From contig NZ_ANOH01000278.1 in NCBI RefSeq assembly GCF_000346505.1, forward strand, positions 1 to 54,530: a stretch of 54,530 nt of DNA. The letters run 5' to 3'. Every line of letters begins with the position of its first letter. The stretch's first letter is position 1. A model generated the notes under the pieces. The model was not told the origin of the DNA, did no database searches, and saw only the letters and a program-made list of their open reading frames with translations. The position numbers and the translations under genes are program-made. Below, piece after piece: positions 6,739 to 50,252 of this stretch. This DNA is from Aporhodopirellula sallentina SM41 (GTDB lineage: Bacteria > Planctomycetota > Planctomycetia > Pirellulales > Pirellulaceae).

Positions 6739-6786
6739 TGGATCTTGTGAAAGATCCTGCTGCATGAGGATCTTTCAAAAGATCCA
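6739..6786. repeat. Palindromic intergenic element, copy 1 (inverted loop orientation)
   Basis: Two 19-bp arms (6739-6757 and 6768-6786) are inverted repeats with a single mismatch: TGGATCTTGTGAAAGATCC against its complement. The central bases read CTGCTGCATGAG, the reverse complement of the centre in the other copies, so this copy is inverted. It sits between two convergent genes, the HD-GYP gene on the plus strand and the end of the cobalamin-linked operon on the minus strand. It could act as a bidirectional terminator or RNA-stabilising hairpin, but there is no T tract. Confidence 0.85.
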
Positions 6787-6856: not shown

Positions 6857-7138
6857 TCACATCCGCGGATCGGTCGGGATCGCGATGCTCGACCGACGAC
6901 GTAGCCACGCCGCCAATGCGAGCCGATTGTGGAAGTTCGTAGGGCCGTCGATCAGCATGCCGGTGCGGGATAATTGCATGATTCGAAACGGGCCGTCGTC
7001 GTTGGGGATGTCGTAGCCGCCCGAATCGGTCAGCAGGAAATGATCTCCGTTCGTTTCGACGCGGATTAAAGATCGAGAAACGCCCGGTGTGTGTTCAACC
7101 TCAAACCCGTGTTCAATCCATTGGTCGTAGAGAGTCAC
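6857..7138 (-). CDS. Small protein of unknown function, last gene of the cobalamin-linked operon
   Basis: A 93-residue protein I do not recognise. It starts with GTG at 7138, which overlaps the TGA of the preceding DUF4465 gene (GTGA), a sign of translational coupling. The sequence is hydrophilic, without signal peptide or membrane helix, and contains LIRVETNGDHFLLTDSGGYD and a C-terminal AAWLRRR. It is the fourth and last gene of the operon behind the cobalamin riboswitch. A cytoplasmic accessory role is possible but not shown. Reality as a gene rests on the coupling and the protein-like composition. Confidence 0.6.
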   Translation of the reverse strand: MTLYDQWIEHGFEVEHTPGVSRSLIRVETNGDHFLLTDSGGYDIPNDDGPFRIMQLSRTGMLIDGPTNFHNRLALAAWLRRRSSIAIPTDPRM

Positions 7139-8103
7139 GCGCGAGACCTCCCTTCGGTGTCGACGACGGTTTGCGACCGTCCACGTTTTCGCAGCGCCAC
7201 CGACAGGACTGCGGCGACGGTCAACACGGCGAAACTGCCTGGTTCAGGGACAGCGGTTGTTGAATAGGTGAAATTGTCGAGCGCGAAATAGCCTGGTGTG
7301 TTCATCCCGTTTGCGTTGGTGTCGGACGACTCCAAGTTAAAGTGCAGACTGATCGCTTCATCAAGAGGTGATAGGTCGAGAAACTCCCATGTGTCGACGA
7401 TGTAGTCTTGTGAATTGTCGTCAAAGCGGTAATCGGCGAGGTAGAACTCGACTTCGGAATCGAGCGTTTGTCCAGCCGCGTCGACGCCATAGACGGACAG
7501 TTTGAGGTAGTCCGGATCGTCTCCGGTTGTTCCGCCGAACTGCTTTGAGAAGTCGTCGCCCGTTTGCATCGAGAGTGCAGCGTATGTCGTGTTGGTGATC
7601 AATGCCGACACCGCGGTTGCTCCTTCGGGAAGGAAAATTGTCGGCAGGTTCATCAGGTGATCGATGTTGGTGGCGTCGAAGGGGACCCCTGCGAAGTACG
7701 GGTGATAGAAGGAGCCTCCCGGTTCGTGGTACCCGAACGCGACGGCGTACTGGGACGATCCCTCCGCTCCGCCGCCGGCGATCGCACTGGACTCGTTGAG
7801 ATAGCTCCCTGATGTCGTGTCGGTTGTGTTGGATATGGAAAATCCGGATTCACTTCCAAACGCGTTCACCACGTTTTGAAACCTGACTCCGTCGCTCTCA
7901 TAGCTGCCGACTTGGTCAGGACCGCCGTAGGCACCGTTCGGATCCGTGACAGCGTTGGGAGCCGGTCCGCTGAGGTATCCGTCGGCTTCGCCAAAGAGAT
8001 CAAAGCTCTCGAAATCGACGACAACGTCCGCGTGCAGTGACGGTGAAAGAATGATGAACATCGCAAGAGCCGCGACGCATCGGAAACGAAATTGCTGGGT
8101 CAT
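7135..8103 (-). CDS. DUF4465-family PEP-CTERM exported protein
   Basis: A 322-residue exported protein. An N-terminal signal peptide (about 1-25) is followed by a DUF4465-type domain (VVDFESF near the start; WEFLDLSPL and FALDNFTYS near the end). A PEP-CTERM sorting signal closes it: AVPEPGS, a hydrophobic helix and an RKRGR tail. PEP-CTERM proteins are thought to be processed by exosortase and retained in the envelope. From memory, DUF4465 proteins recur beside cobalamin transport genes in Bacteroidetes, which fits the cobalamin riboswitch at the head of this operon. It follows the pseudopilin gene by 22 bp and overlaps the next gene by 4 bp. Binding of a corrinoid is inference. Confidence 0.85.
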   Translation of the reverse strand: MTQQFRFRCVAALAMFIILSPSLHADVVVDFESFDLFGEADGYLSGPAPNAVTDPNGAYGGPDQVGSYESDGVRFQNVVNAFGSESGFSISNTTDTTSGSYLNESSAIAGGGAEGSSQYAVAFGYHEPGGSFYHPYFAGVPFDATNIDHLMNLPTIFLPEGATAVSALITNTTYAALSMQTGDDFSKQFGGTTGDDPDYLKLSVYGVDAAGQTLDSEVEFYLADYRFDDNSQDYIVDTWEFLDLSPLDEAISLHFNLESSDTNANGMNTPGYFALDNFTYSTTAVPEPGSFAVLTVAAVLSVALRKRGRSQTVVDTEGRSRA

Positions 8104-8125
8104 GTGAGTTCTCGGTGTTGGTCGT

Positions 8126-9259
8126 CTAGAAATCGGAGATCAGTTCGCCGCCACGACGCGACAGCAAAGCGGCAAAGGTTTTCAGGTCGAGTTGTTCGGT
8201 CACGAACCTCACCGAACCGTCCACCATCAAGAAGTTGGATCCGCCGGGGTGGTAGCTGTGGAACTCTTGACCGAAGTCGCAATAGTCACCGTGCCTGCTT
8301 TTGAGAGAGGGGGCACAGGAACTCCAGGTCGTGCCGCTTTTCACACGGGCGTTTATCGGTGCGCTTTGGTCGAATAGGTTTTTGTGGCCGATCCAAATCG
8401 AATGCAGGCCTTCGGGGGCTTCGCCTACAACAATCGTTTGCGAGGCTCCGTCGAAGATGTCTCGCAATCCGATCTGTGGATCTTTGCCAAAGAGCAGAAC
8501 GCCTCGGCCGACACCGTCGGTTATGCCGATGTCCGAGTAGTCGTTTCGGCAACTTCCGTGAGGAGCACACCGCAGCCCGCGTTCGCCATAGTTTCCGCCG
8601 TAGTCTGTTCGTCCAAATTGAACGTCCGACCAAGGAGTGTCGCCGTTAGGACGCGTCGATTCCAATTGCGGTGCGGACGGGCACAAATAAGTCGGAACGA
8701 GCTTGGCTCCGCCGGCATGGTTGACCGCGTCCACATAGGGAGTGTCCAGGTTCAGTTCCTCGTAGAGTGCCTGTTGTTCGAGGAACGGCAGCAGAACCGA
8801 ACCCCAACTCGGACGCCACATTTCCCGAATCGCAGGATTGGTTGCGGACACCACACCAGCACCTCCGGTAGGAAATTTCCGATAGACGCTGTGGTAGTTG
8901 TGAAAGCCCAGGCCGACCTGTTTGAGGTTGTTGGCGCATTGGATTCGTCTCATGGCCTCACGAGCCGATTGAACCGCCGGCAACAACAACCCCATCAGTA
9001 ACGCGATGATTCCAATGACGACCAACAACTCGACCAGCGTGAAGGCATGACGCGTTGAGTCGAGACGTTGCCGTGACTTGGCGACCACGTTTGCTTTCGC
9101 AACCGAGTCGAGCGTCGTCCAGCGTCCGATTTCATCGGCGGTGCGTCCGCAACCGATGCAGATTCGACTTAGGTCGAGTCGGCAAACTCCGGTGCAGGGA
9201 GAGGCAACGTCAGGTCCGCCGTTGTCTTGGCTCGGCGTCGTTTTCATGGCCTCGCTCAT
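8126..9259 (-). CDS. DUF1289 domain fused to a DUF1559 type II/IV pseudopilin-like protein
   Basis: A 377-residue two-part protein. Residues 20-66 form a DUF1289 domain with the four-cysteine motif SPCTGVC...CIGCG (C22, C26, C34, C37), then EIGRW and a helical tail. In frame follows a prepilin signal HAFTLVELLVVIG (E77 in the +5 position) and a DUF1559 body with CANNLKQVGLGFHNYH and the C-terminal LMVDGSVRFV. A DUF1559 protein normally begins a few residues before the prepilin motif, so the 70-residue N-terminal extension is abnormal. An in-frame GTG at codon 59 could start a pilin-only form. The ATG overlaps the stop of the preceding gene by one base (TGATG), indicating coupling. Function is unproven; surface assembly is likely for the pilin part. 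Confidence 0.85.
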   Translation of the reverse strand: MSEAMKTTPSQDNGGPDVASPCTGVCRLDLSRICIGCGRTADEIGRWTTLDSVAKANVVAKSRQRLDSTRHAFTLVELLVVIGIIALLMGLLLPAVQSAREAMRRIQCANNLKQVGLGFHNYHSVYRKFPTGGAGVVSATNPAIREMWRPSWGSVLLPFLEQQALYEELNLDTPYVDAVNHAGGAKLVPTYLCPSAPQLESTRPNGDTPWSDVQFGRTDYGGNYGERGLRCAPHGSCRNDYSDIGITDGVGRGVLLFGKDPQIGLRDIFDGASQTIVVGEAPEGLHSIWIGHKNLFDQSAPINARVKSGTTWSSCAPSLKSRHGDYCDFGQEFHSYHPGGSNFLMVDGSVRFVTEQLDLKTFAALLSRRGGELISDF

Positions 9260-10149
9260 CAGGCCGCATCATCGTTGGATGTCGCTGCTTTCGATGTCTC
9301 ACGCGGATGTCGCCGCCGACGTCGATGACGAGCGACGAATCCCGCGGTGAGCATCCCCATGATCGCCAAACTCGATGGTTCGGGAACGGCCGTGACGCTG
9401 TTGAGGACTCCAATCGCACCGGTTGGCAGGCCGACGTAGTCGAAACCGCCCGAACCGGATGTCGGGAAGTTGTCATAGATCGGATTGCCAAGGCTGTCGG
9501 TATACGATCCGTCGCCAGGGATGTCTGTCAGGCGGATGTAGTTGATCTGGTCGAGGTTGACGATGCCGTTGAGGACGAGCGTATCCGTGCTGAGTGCGTC
9601 CAGGTCAAACGGCGTTCCCCAGTTGGCCGCGTGCTTCCCGGCGAGGTTGTTGACGTTGGTGACGTCAAAGCCTGAGAAAGCACCGCCGAATCCGCCGGGC
9701 AATGGTCCGGAGTTTAAGTTGATGCTGGGGAAGCGAAGGAAATCGCTGCCGTTCGTGCTGACGTCGACATACGCGAATTCGGCAAAGAGTCCGGGCACAC
9801 CGTCCGAATTCGTACCAAAGTTGAATCCGTTTTCAAAGACGGCAAAGTCGGCTCCGAGTCCGTTGGTGATCGGCGCGTCGAACCCAAGGGTGATGTAACC
9901 TGGCGTGCCCGAACCGTTGACCTCGCCGAGCGAACTCAACCCTGTTTCGGGATTGGTAAAGCTCGGGCTCACTCCCGCGGCGGGAAAGTATTCGACCACG
10001 CTCGTTTCGAACGTCGAGACGGCGCTGCGTGCGATCGGATTGTCGGGGGCTCCGTTCGTCGTACCGGACGGGCCTGAGTAGATTCCGCCCGATACAGCGG
10101 AGGTGAGGCATGCAGTGATCACTGCTGCCGAGAACATGCGGCAAAACAT
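9259..10149 (-). CDS. PEP-CTERM exported protein, first gene behind the cobalamin riboswitch
   Basis: A 296-residue exported protein. Signal peptide (about 1-20), then a beta-rich body with GYITLGFDAPI, ADFAVFENGF, AEFAYVDVSTNGSDF and GFDVTNVNNLAGKH, then a PEP-CTERM signal (AVPEPSS, a helix and an RHRRRRR tail). The body resembles exported cell-surface proteins that I recall next to B12 uptake genes in Bacteroidetes; this is recognition from memory only. It is the first gene of a four-gene minus-strand operon, and its ATG lies about 230 bp after the B12 box of the riboswitch. Expression should fall when cobalamin is plentiful. A role in corrinoid capture at the cell surface is inference. Confidence 0.85.
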   Translation of the reverse strand: MFCRMFSAAVITACLTSAVSGGIYSGPSGTTNGAPDNPIARSAVSTFETSVVEYFPAAGVSPSFTNPETGLSSLGEVNGSGTPGYITLGFDAPITNGLGADFAVFENGFNFGTNSDGVPGLFAEFAYVDVSTNGSDFLRFPSINLNSGPLPGGFGGAFSGFDVTNVNNLAGKHAANWGTPFDLDALSTDTLVLNGIVNLDQINYIRLTDIPGDGSYTDSLGNPIYDNFPTSGSGGFDYVGLPTGAIGVLNSVTAVPEPSSLAIMGMLTAGFVARHRRRRRHPRETSKAATSNDDAA

Positions 10150-10286
10150 CGTGTTGCGTTATTCGTTGGAACTCGGCGGTTCGCTCGAGACGCACCTTCA
10201 TCGCAGATACCGCAGTCAATTCACTGCAGAACAAACGCGCGAATGGGAACGCTAGAGTGGTCGCTGAGTCAGTTCAATGAAGAATC

Positions 10287-10333
10287 CAAAAGCCAAACGT
10301 TCCGCGTTTGAACACAGCAATGTGTGGCTTTTG
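10287..10333 (-). promoter_or_regulatory. Three-way-junction structure in the leader between the B12 box and the first gene
   Basis: A closing stem (10287-10295 with 10325-10333, CAAAAGCCA and its complement) encloses two small hairpins: AAACG/CGTTT (10295-10299 with 10305-10309) and ACACA/TGTGT (10312-10316 with 10321-10325). It lies in the minus-strand leader, 45 bp after the B12 box. It is a good candidate for the expression platform or an adjoining regulatory structure. No clear T tract follows, so a simple intrinsic terminator is not obvious. Confidence 0.55.
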
Positions 10334-10375
10334 CAACGACCGCCCCAATCCAGGAGGGCACTGAGCCGTCTCGTT

Positions 10376-10600
10376 CAAGGTAGGTCTTCTGACTCACCAC
10401 TCTTCCGTCTCGCTCGCTGCCTTCTCATTCGTGATTCACGAACAATGGCACTTTCAAAGAAAGGAGCGACGGATGCGAACTGTTAAGAACGCAAGTGGCA
10501 CACAGCGGCCGGACCGTCTCGGAATTGACATCGACAAAAACGACGTCGCACCGAAGTTCCCTGTTCACGAACGAGGCTGAAACCACGTTCGTCACCATGA
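10376..10600 (-). promoter_or_regulatory. Cobalamin riboswitch
   Basis: Read on the minus strand, the classic elements come in order. First is a GGTG start and a P2 hairpin (ACGAACG...CGTTCGT). Then comes AACAGGGAA followed by CGGTG, then ATTCCGAGACGG continuing into GTCCGGCCGCTGT, close to the consensus GCCACTGT core. A variable peripheral region follows, and the B12 box GAGTCAGAAGACCTACC lies at 10378-10395. This is the adenosylcobalamin-type aptamer layout (core, variable arm, B12 box). The regulated unit is the four-gene operon 10149-6857. No B12 synthesis gene or BtuB is nearby, so the switch controls surface proteins only. I could not fold it by computation; the boundaries are approximate. 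Confidence 0.9.
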
Positions 10601-10689
10601 ACGCACGAGATGTTACAAGGGACGATGGAACTGTCAATGATGTAAAAAAGTTTACATGACCGACGCATCTTCGTTTGGGTCGGCGGTCG

Positions 10690-10737
10690 TGGATCTTAGG
10701 AAAGATCCTCATGTCACAGGATCTTTCACAGGATTAA
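10690..10737. repeat. Palindromic intergenic element, copy 2
   Basis: Arms at 10690-10708 and 10719-10737, with TGGATCTTAGGAAAGATCC on the left and a slightly diverged complement on the right. The centre reads CTCATGTCACAG. It lies about 30 bp beyond the stop of the DUF11 lipoprotein gene and upstream of the cobalamin riboswitch. It is the most diverged of the six copies. Confidence 0.75.
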
Positions 10738-20148: not shown

Positions 20149-20567
20149 TTTTCTTTCCCCGTGTGTATCGGCGAAATCGCCGCAAAATAACTACCCAACG
20201 CACAGGTATGGGTCGCGCCCCGGAATGGGGTGGGGAGAATTGTCAGGGATCGGCGAGAAAACTCTATCGCCAACCCTCACAACCGGCACGGTCCTTGTTT
20301 CCGATTTACGAGGACAGGACTCAACCAATCGCCAATTACCCGATCGGTGTTCGAGTGTTTTGTAATTTAACGAGCGGGATCTCTGTGGCTGGACTCGTCA
20401 GAGATCAGGTCAGCGAATTAGGGCAACCTCGGCTACGGCATTTTCTAGAACGCTCTCGTATTCCGACGCAGCATGGTATTGCGGTAGGTGGTAGTGGATC
20501 TTGTGAAAGATCCTCATGCAGCAGGATCTTTCCCAAGATCACTACCCGGAAATGAAGCTGAGGCAGC
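20149..20567. other. Intergenic region with a palindromic repeat
   Basis: About 420 bp between two minus-strand genes. It must hold the promoter of the gene ending at 18646. The only clear structure is the palindromic element at 20490-20546; I see no gene. Confidence 0.6.
20490..20546. repeat. Palindromic intergenic element, copy 4
   Basis: Near-canonical copy. The left arm reads GGTAGTGGATCTTGTG then AAAGATCC, the centre CTCATGCAGCAG, and the right arm is the complement with one base missing near the outer end. It lies about 20 bp beyond the stop of the minus-strand membrane-protein gene. Confidence 0.9.
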
Positions 20568-44134: not shown

Positions 44135-44184
44135 GTGGATCTTGTTAACGATCCTCATGCAGCAGGATCTTTGACAAGACCCAC
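44135..44184. repeat. Palindromic intergenic element, copy 5
   Basis: Arms at 44135-44154 (GTGGATCTTGTTAACGATCC) and 44165-44184, the complement with several mismatches, around CTCATGCAGCAG. It lies between convergent genes, 64 bp after the zinc-ribbon protein stop and 35 bp from the end of the minus-strand gene. Confidence 0.85.
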
Positions 44185-50194: not shown

Positions 50195-50252
50195 GGTAGC
50201 GGATCTTGTGAAAGATCCTCATGCAGCAGGATCTTTCATAAGATCCACTACC
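50195..50252. repeat. Palindromic intergenic element, copy 6
   Basis: Near-canonical copy with the full outer arms (GGTAGCGGATCTTGTG... and ...AAGATCCACTACC) and the centre CTCATGCAGCAG. It lies between the FKBP and NiSOD genes, 260 bp after the former's stop; that is further from the stop than in the other copies. Confidence 0.9.

Follow-up and report, generated by a model that had tools for sequence, protein, structure and literature searches.

The window analysed here is a stretch of 54,530 nucleotides (nt) from Aporhodopirellula sallentina SM41 (contig NZ_ANOH01000278.1), and the system in question is an operon of four minus-strand open reading frames (ORFs), referred to as genes 1 to 4, that lies behind a cobalamin riboswitch (Table 1). 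As an earlier note on this DNA had described, the genes are tightly joined: genes 1 and 2 overlap by 1 nt, a gap of 22 nt separates genes 2 and 3, and genes 3 and 4 overlap by 4 nt.

Table 1. Operon features and flanking elements, in positions of the window (aa, amino acids; REP, repetitive extragenic palindromic)
Feature	Position	Strand	Basis or remark
Sigma-70-like promoter match (TTGACA-16-TAACAT), immediately upstream of the aptamer	10610..10637	-	pattern match only
Cobalamin riboswitch aptamer RF00174	10362..10614	-	67.2 bits, model complete
Leader, aptamer to start of gene 1	10150..10361	-	between aptamer and first ORF
Gene 1, 296-aa PEP-CTERM protein with probable BtuH-like domain	9259..10149	-	Pfam; profile and fold match to 8blw_B
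Gene 2, 377 aa, DUF1289 fused to prepilin (N_methyl and DUF1559 / H-X9-DG)	8126..9259	-	Pfam, NCBIfam
Gene 2, DUF1289 domain, residues 20-65, before the prepilin cleavage motif	9065..9202	-	PF06945, 57.2 bits
Gene 2, prepilin cleavage/methylation motif, residues 70-93	8981..9052	-	PF07963, 26.5 bits
Gene 3, 322-aa DUF4465 protein (BtuJ family)	7135..8103	-	PF14717, 172.5 bits; phmmer
Gene 3, DUF4465 domain	7270..7860	-	Tyr174 and Tyr272 at B12-contact positions
Gene 4, 93-aa protein	6857..7138	-	between nrdA and nrdB in three relatives
REP-like hairpin upstream of the operon	10700..10727	.	one of five copies in the window
REP-like hairpin downstream of the operon	6749..6776	.	

Concerning the riboswitch, RF00174 is matched over its full length (model positions 1-189) at 67.2 bits, the gathering cut-off being 31.5 (E 1.7e-14 for the window), which bears out both the full minus-strand aptamer of the earlier note and the match it had anticipated near 10370-10610. 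In the leader, a complement of 8 nt to the B12 box lies at chance level (p 0.25), and among the leaders of 34 loci, the window included, none reaches p<=0.05 in this rough shuffle test, from which 26 further loci with an unmatched box pattern were left out. An expression platform of the anti-B12-box type, suggested by one fold, was dropped, the complementarity being within chance. The promoter pattern occurs once in the 4.1 kb scanned, with 1.3 matches expected by chance.

Judged by its sequence, gene 3 is a member of BtuJ, a published family of B12-binding proteins: its PF14717 score compares with a cut-off of 25 bits, and phmmer matched 9hmu (E 4e-19), 9qpm and 9fct in the Protein Data Bank (PDB). 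According to PMC13398666, 9HMU shows D5EK51 from Coraliomargarita in complex with B12, 9FCT is BtuJ1 of Bacteroides thetaiotaomicron, and 9qpm is listed in a table just as a DUF4465 protein. The same article describes B12 binding for eight members of DUF4465, including the planctomycete protein 'Pan' of Mucisphaera, and gives the tyrosines of the HI loop and the DE helix as conserved B12 contacts (PMC13398666). In the alignments with 9fct, 9hmu and 9qpm, Tyr174 (TNTTY, DE helix) and Tyr272 (NTPGYF, HI loop) of gene 3 align with these tyrosines. Because DUF4465 members bind B12, as published in 2025-26 (PMC13398666), the view of the earlier note that the operon lacks a known B12 gene has been overtaken; gene 1, moreover, appears BtuH-like. 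The note had also counted two PEP-CTERM proteins; this holds for gene 1 (26.2 bits, cut-off 20.7), whereas gene 3 stays below the cut-off (17.3 bits), with a VPEPGSF...RKRG tail recognized by eye.

Gene 1, in which no other domain exceeds its Pfam cut-off, is probably a remote relative of BtuH, as indicated by profile searches and a predicted structure. A profile of 25 relatives gave 8blw_B as the single PDB match up to E 5 (E 0.0041), and a broader one of 37 relatives (A2) gave the same chain as its best match (E 2.4e-4), the next following at 0.21. This chain is B. thetaiotaomicron BtuG1 (BT_1490), and the match at residues 372-477 of 663 overlaps its C-terminal region, given as the BtuH homology region in PMC8941943. 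For the AlphaFold model of gene 1 (predicted local distance difference test, pLDDT, 82.1; predicted TM-score, pTM, 0.87), 8blw_B was again the sole Foldseek match under 1e-3 (E 2.8e-4, probability 1.00). As would be expected of a btuH homologue, the gene is encoded in a riboswitch-linked cobamide locus. However, more than 80% of the btuH homologues in the panel of PMC8941943 are encoded with btuB, and gene 1 departs from this usual pairing, since none of 61 Pirellulaceae loci contains a BtuB-like ORF (two query receptors, E 1e-6).

In gene 2, DUF1289, N_methyl and DUF1559 (SBP_bac_10) each exceed the Pfam cut-off and, with PF07963, PF07596 and TIGR04294 all above cut-off, the DUF1289-pseudopilin fusion reported in the earlier note is upheld. 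Within the surveyed loci, ten ORFs (gene 2 included) carry DUF1289 ahead of the prepilin cleavage motif; elsewhere it forms a separate ORF after a giant gene described below. Gene 4 matches no Pfam family and is 51-55% identical to proteins situated between nrdA and nrdB in G105, G025 and G086 (the NrdA/NrdB neighbours being checked with Pfam in locus L149 only), whose loci lie behind cobalamin riboswitches. It thus appears to be associated otherwise with the B12-independent reductase NrdAB, and could be a leftover or serve another purpose in the window genome, where it is retained and NrdA was not found (nrdB was not searched for).

The arrangement was followed in 149 Pirellulaceae genomes, that of A. 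sallentina included. RF00174 occurs in 123 and DUF4465 in 59 of them, and strong relatives of gene 1 (E<=3e-24, counted by hand) are present in 26; weak gene 1 matches (50 genomes at E<=1e-3) were set aside, many covering the tail region only. Sixty regions with a DUF4465 or gene 1 match, some from the same genome, were fetched, representing 52 of the 59 DUF4465 genomes (all except G072, G075, G084, G108, G118, G119 and G144), and the window brings the number of loci to 61. Sixty of these have a same-strand riboswitch upstream that reaches the gathering score (43 by survey coordinates, 16 of the remaining 17 by locus scan, plus the window), such that the riboswitch-operon link of the earlier note recurs in relatives; the locus scan of L127 found none upstream at that score. 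With gene 3 as query, a DUF4465 ORF was detected in 54 of the 60 riboswitch loci, accompanied by a prepilin at most 2 kb from the riboswitch in 45, by DUF1289 in 22, by a gene 1 relative in 21 and by DUF6580 in 8. Outside the riboswitch operons, the same search found six prepilins in the same 850 kb; because DUF1559 accounts for 68 of 4258 proteins in Planctopirus limnophila (PMC10632474), chance alone should give a prepilin rate of one or two per cent. Receptor and importer queries recovered no BtuB and no BtuC in the 61 loci, and BtuD-like ORFs in two of them (L117, L131).

In several genera of Pirellulaceae, a single protein of about 1500-2600 aa combines a gene 1-like domain with usually three DUF4465 domains, in one same-genus genome (G115) also with a dockerin domain. 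These giant fusions, that of A. sallentina itself included, lie behind riboswitches and would tie the parts of the operon together. In the latter genome (contig G000:C90, L108), a 56.8-bit cobalamin riboswitch heads a prepilin, a 1956-aa protein (gene 1-like and three DUF4465), DUF1289 and DUF6580. The same order is found in four of five same-genus genomes (loci, with that of A. sallentina: L108, L109, L111, L114, L116); in G130 (L121), DUF6580 was not seen within the fetched stretch.

Among 30 high-scoring riboswitch loci of Pirellulaceae, one per genome, a prepilin is the commonest target, which is unexpected: a prepilin motif follows the riboswitch within 700 nt in 20 loci (18 by pattern, L028 and L035 by eye), and the other ten, mostly assigned by eye, precede NrdA (5), MetE (2), SUMT (1), DUF1289-DUF6580 (1) and DUF4465 (1). 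Five of the sampled loci (L023, L026, L028, L033, L034) are DUF4465 loci in DUF4465 genomes, and the riboswitch-prepilin pairing exists also in genomes without DUF4465 (such as G019, G128 and G066). A tree of 79 prepilins labelled by context required 6 label changes, compared with 29.9 on average after shuffling (none of 200 shuffles as low, the contrast being to only 8 non-riboswitch prepilins); the riboswitch-linked prepilins therefore fall into a few lineages. As a separate observation by eye, riboswitch and prepilin are followed by CobQ (cobyric acid synthase) in L008 and L010, where the prepilin adjoins a B12 synthesis gene, and in L015, L017 and L018 by a small protein that resembles a lipoprotein and has a CxxC pair.

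The earlier note had suggested a system specific to planctomycetes. This is not supported, the capture proteins not being confined to that group: at least 549 relatives of gene 1 were confirmed in the genome collection, and the best 80, which were kept, span some eleven phyla by their record titles (Planctomycetota, Verrucomicrobiota, Lentisphaerota, Kiritimatiellota, Cyanobacteria, Pseudomonadota, Desulfobacterota and other deltaproteobacteria, Myxococcota, Spirochaetota, Bacillota, Sumerlaeota), with DUF4465 in 41 of these 80 loci. A cobalamin-type riboswitch on the same strand, in some cases several kilobases upstream, was present in 17 of 20 scanned loci, namely in eight of ten chosen for variety (none in L171 and L177) and in nine of ten with an adjacent prepilin (none in L210). 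A prepilin adjoins gene 1 in 22 of the 80 loci, mainly in the Planctomycetes-Verrucomicrobia-Chlamydiae (PVC) group, and a BtuB-like ORF, defined by its likeness to the L188 or L179 TonB receptor such that divergent receptors were possibly missed, is found in 36; some loci are truncated by the end of their contig, and the receptor of L188 does not reach the NCBIfam BtuB cut-offs. A prepilin without BtuB occurs in 21 loci, BtuB without prepilin in 35, both in one (L182) and neither in 23 (p 3e-6 in a Fisher test that ignores kinship, the loci sharing ancestry); the Verrucomicrobiota give 7, 8, 0 and 5 in the same order (p 0.015). With only 3 supported independent pairs, too few for 0.05, a tree-aware test could not separate this exclusion from common descent. 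By gene position, the prepilin seems to occupy the place held by BtuB in other phyla.

Two of the loci from other phyla are close to the operon. In Methyloversatilis (L188), a gene 1-like gene and DUF4465 stand in one run behind a riboswitch, as in the operon family described here, but a TonB receptor, BtuB-like by position and similarity, takes the prepilin's place. In Candidatus Sumerlaeota (L185, 7439-12012), riboswitch, gene 1-like gene and prepilin likewise follow one another, whereas the prepilin is very divergent (branch length 3.47) and the run continues with BtuF-, BtuD- and BtuC-like genes, a BtuFCD-like importer whose Pfam scores exceed the cut-offs and whose NCBIfam equivalogs fall below them. 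A further side observation concerns the Gram-positive Paenibacillus (L195, 7615-9746), in which a 655-aa ORF with a gene 1 relative lies directly behind a riboswitch of the adenosylcobalamin (AdoCbl) class, RF01482.

The genome of A. sallentina (8.19 Mb, 99.99% complete, 2.79% contaminated) encodes the B12-dependent enzymes NrdJ (NF005122, 1427.5 against 859 bits) and MetH as well as methylmalonyl-CoA mutase, NrdJ being the only Ribonuc_red_lgC protein found. CbiC had no match in the genome search, and the host is probably a B12 auxotroph, although this single synthesis marker is thin proof; the model planctomycete P. limnophila depends strictly on added B12 (PMC12639061). FecCD/BtuC (PF01032) yielded two matches of 21.7 and 21.4 bits, short of the 26.5-bit cut-off, with 13 of 14 control genomes above it and other B12-transporter families not searched, and EcfT/CbiQ (PF02361) yielded none, with 10 of 14 controls positive. 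Neither was a BtuB-like TonB receptor found: the one plug domain in the genome belongs to a receptor (755 residues in its locus) that matches a copper-receptor model best and stays below every NCBIfam cut-off.

DUF6580 has a single copy in this genome, in the C90 riboswitch operon. A profile of 9 sequences matched only 6fnp_A in the PDB (E 0.0064, weak); 6FNP is the entry of the energy-coupling factor (ECF) transporter ECF-CbrT (PMC5997447), and chain A is, from its name and length, presumably CbrT itself. In Foldseek, the high-probability matches of its predicted structure (pLDDT 78.5, pTM 0.69) are S-components, with the top TM-scores for BtuM (0.61/0.71) and probabilities of 0.99-1.00 at modest E-values of 0.04-0.1 for TmRibU and BtuM. 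The tentative likeness to ECF-CbrT and BtuM (PMC6072759) consists in an S-component-like predicted fold and the sole profile match; it differs in that the similarity is remote and EcfT was not found. No paper on DUF6580 was found in the open-licence literature.

We consider it very probable that the window carries an operon for cobamide capture that is repressed by B12 and belongs to a predicted auxotroph; it would combine BtuH- and BtuJ-type proteins with a dedicated prepilin and an inner-membrane step by DUF6580. Surface capture of cobamides by the operon products is well supported, and the riboswitch-linked surface corrinoid capture proposed in the earlier note is retained with the BtuJ-family gene 3, the BtuH-like gene 1 and the riboswitch in 60 of 61 loci. 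At low intracellular B12, the riboswitch would permit expression of the operon; gene 3, as published for its family, and presumably gene 1 would bind cobamides outside the cell, and the prepilin of gene 2 may expose these proteins or carry cargo through the outer envelope. Import across the inner membrane would most likely be by DUF6580 from the second riboswitch operon, rather than by BtuCD.

Several observations weigh against this interpretation. No expression platform was identified in the leader by folding, complementarity or promoter scan. Nine of the 54 DUF4465 loci are free of a prepilin (L117, L123, L131, L134, L143, L150, L153, L154, L158), which is therefore not always needed, and BtuF-like ORFs occur in two relatives' loci (L149, L154). 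The superposition of gene 1 on 8blw_B is poor (TMq 0.53, low; root-mean-square deviation 11.9 over 313 columns), and the structure of BtuH2 itself is absent among the matches listed. In the giant protein of C90, two of the three HI-loop tyrosines read F. DUF6580 lies outside the window's own operon, its E-values are weak, and CbrT required an ECF module to support growth (PMC5997447), whereas no EcfT was found here, such that DUF6580 would have to act alone. Finally, the genome-wide absences come from searches that begin with a loose first look: the C90 riboswitch was missed at first, which shows that the genome search can miss matches, and the initial statement of a single riboswitch in the genome was dropped.

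The strongest alternative, to which we give a little less than even odds, is surface storage or scavenging, in which genes 1 and 3 bind B12, the prepilin serves secretion or display (as a pseudopilus like that of type II secretion systems) and an unrelated porin or transporter imports. Prepilin-like proteins generally serve secretion. DUF1559 is, in addition, a large paralogous family (68 members in Planctopirus limnophila, 74 in R. baltica; PMC10632474, PMC2754498), and the prepilin-free DUF4465 loci fit such a role as well. It is opposed by the prepilins that, in the sample of 30, follow riboswitches even in genomes without DUF4465 (such as G019, G128 and G066) and by the lack of a BtuB-like ORF in 21 of the 22 loci in which a prepilin adjoins gene 1, both of which remain compatible with display.

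A fibre-based import independent of BtuB, in which a B12-repressed prepilin pseudopilus and a lone DUF6580 S-component replace BtuB and BtuCD in PVC bacteria, is a tentative and rather doubtful extension of the capture operon. The prepilin would form or cap a pseudopilus that takes up B12 from the BtuH- and BtuJ-type surface proteins and delivers it to the periplasm, for import by the S-component. As planctomycete fibres arising from crateriform structures bind dextran (PMC5394234), fibre-aided uptake is conceivable, though the B12 case is not thereby shown; a riboswitch-linked prepilin would tie such fibres to the uptake of a small nutrient.

Quite improbable is a B12-independent backup, in which nrdAB and similar relief genes would be what the riboswitch controls, with the surface genes as passengers: gene 4 between nrdA and nrdB in three relatives and the 7 of 30 sampled riboswitches that precede nrdA or metE (by eye) agree with it, whereas the window operon contains no nrdAB, NrdJ, the only Ribonuc_red_lgC protein found, is B12-dependent, and DUF4465 has a published B12-binding function. 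That the aptamer is degenerate or without a control role, and the gene order coincidental, is hardly credible, as only the empty search for an expression platform speaks for it against the complete model match, the identical arrangement in 60 of 61 loci and the riboswitches in 17 of the 20 loci scanned among the best 80.

Compared with described systems, the B12-capture operon would be a new arrangement of a type already known, its capture proteins being related to BtuJ and, probably and remotely, to BtuH. The cobamide loci of B. thetaiotaomicron, with btuB, btuG, btuH, btuJ and btuK (PMC12751083, PMC8941943), share with it the cobalamin riboswitches and the exported binding proteins of BtuH and BtuJ type; they differ in that lipoproteins with BtuB/BtuG and BtuFCD stand where PEP-CTERM proteins and a prepilin are found here, BtuB being missing from the locus and BtuC not found in the genome search. 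Among the B12-binding DUF4465 / IPR027828 proteins (BtuJ1, BtuJ2, D5EK51, 'Pan'), gene 3 is a member with both tyrosines kept, whereas it is set apart by the DUF1289-prepilin in its operon and by the giant multi-domain proteins of relatives and of its own genome. The open-licence literature searched names no route of B12 uptake for planctomycetes and yielded no paper that joins cobalamin riboswitches and Planctomycetes; passages on DUF1559 show no link to B12. The operon family provides a short, testable list of parts (BtuH- and BtuJ-type capture proteins, riboswitch-linked prepilin, DUF1289, DUF6580) and indicates an unusual way of feeding on B12 in a genome in which the BtuCD permease was not found.

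Aside from these genes, a REP-like hairpin (GAAAGATCCT-8nt-AGGATCTTTC) is present in five copies in the window, four exact and one with 3 mismatches, where shuffles expect 0. A shorter exact pattern recurs in 3 of 244 loci, all three being pieces of the same window, and the hairpins are probably not part of the operon mechanism. Three copies lie at 20505-20532, 44146-44173 and 50210-50237, and the two others (Table 1) bracket the operon.

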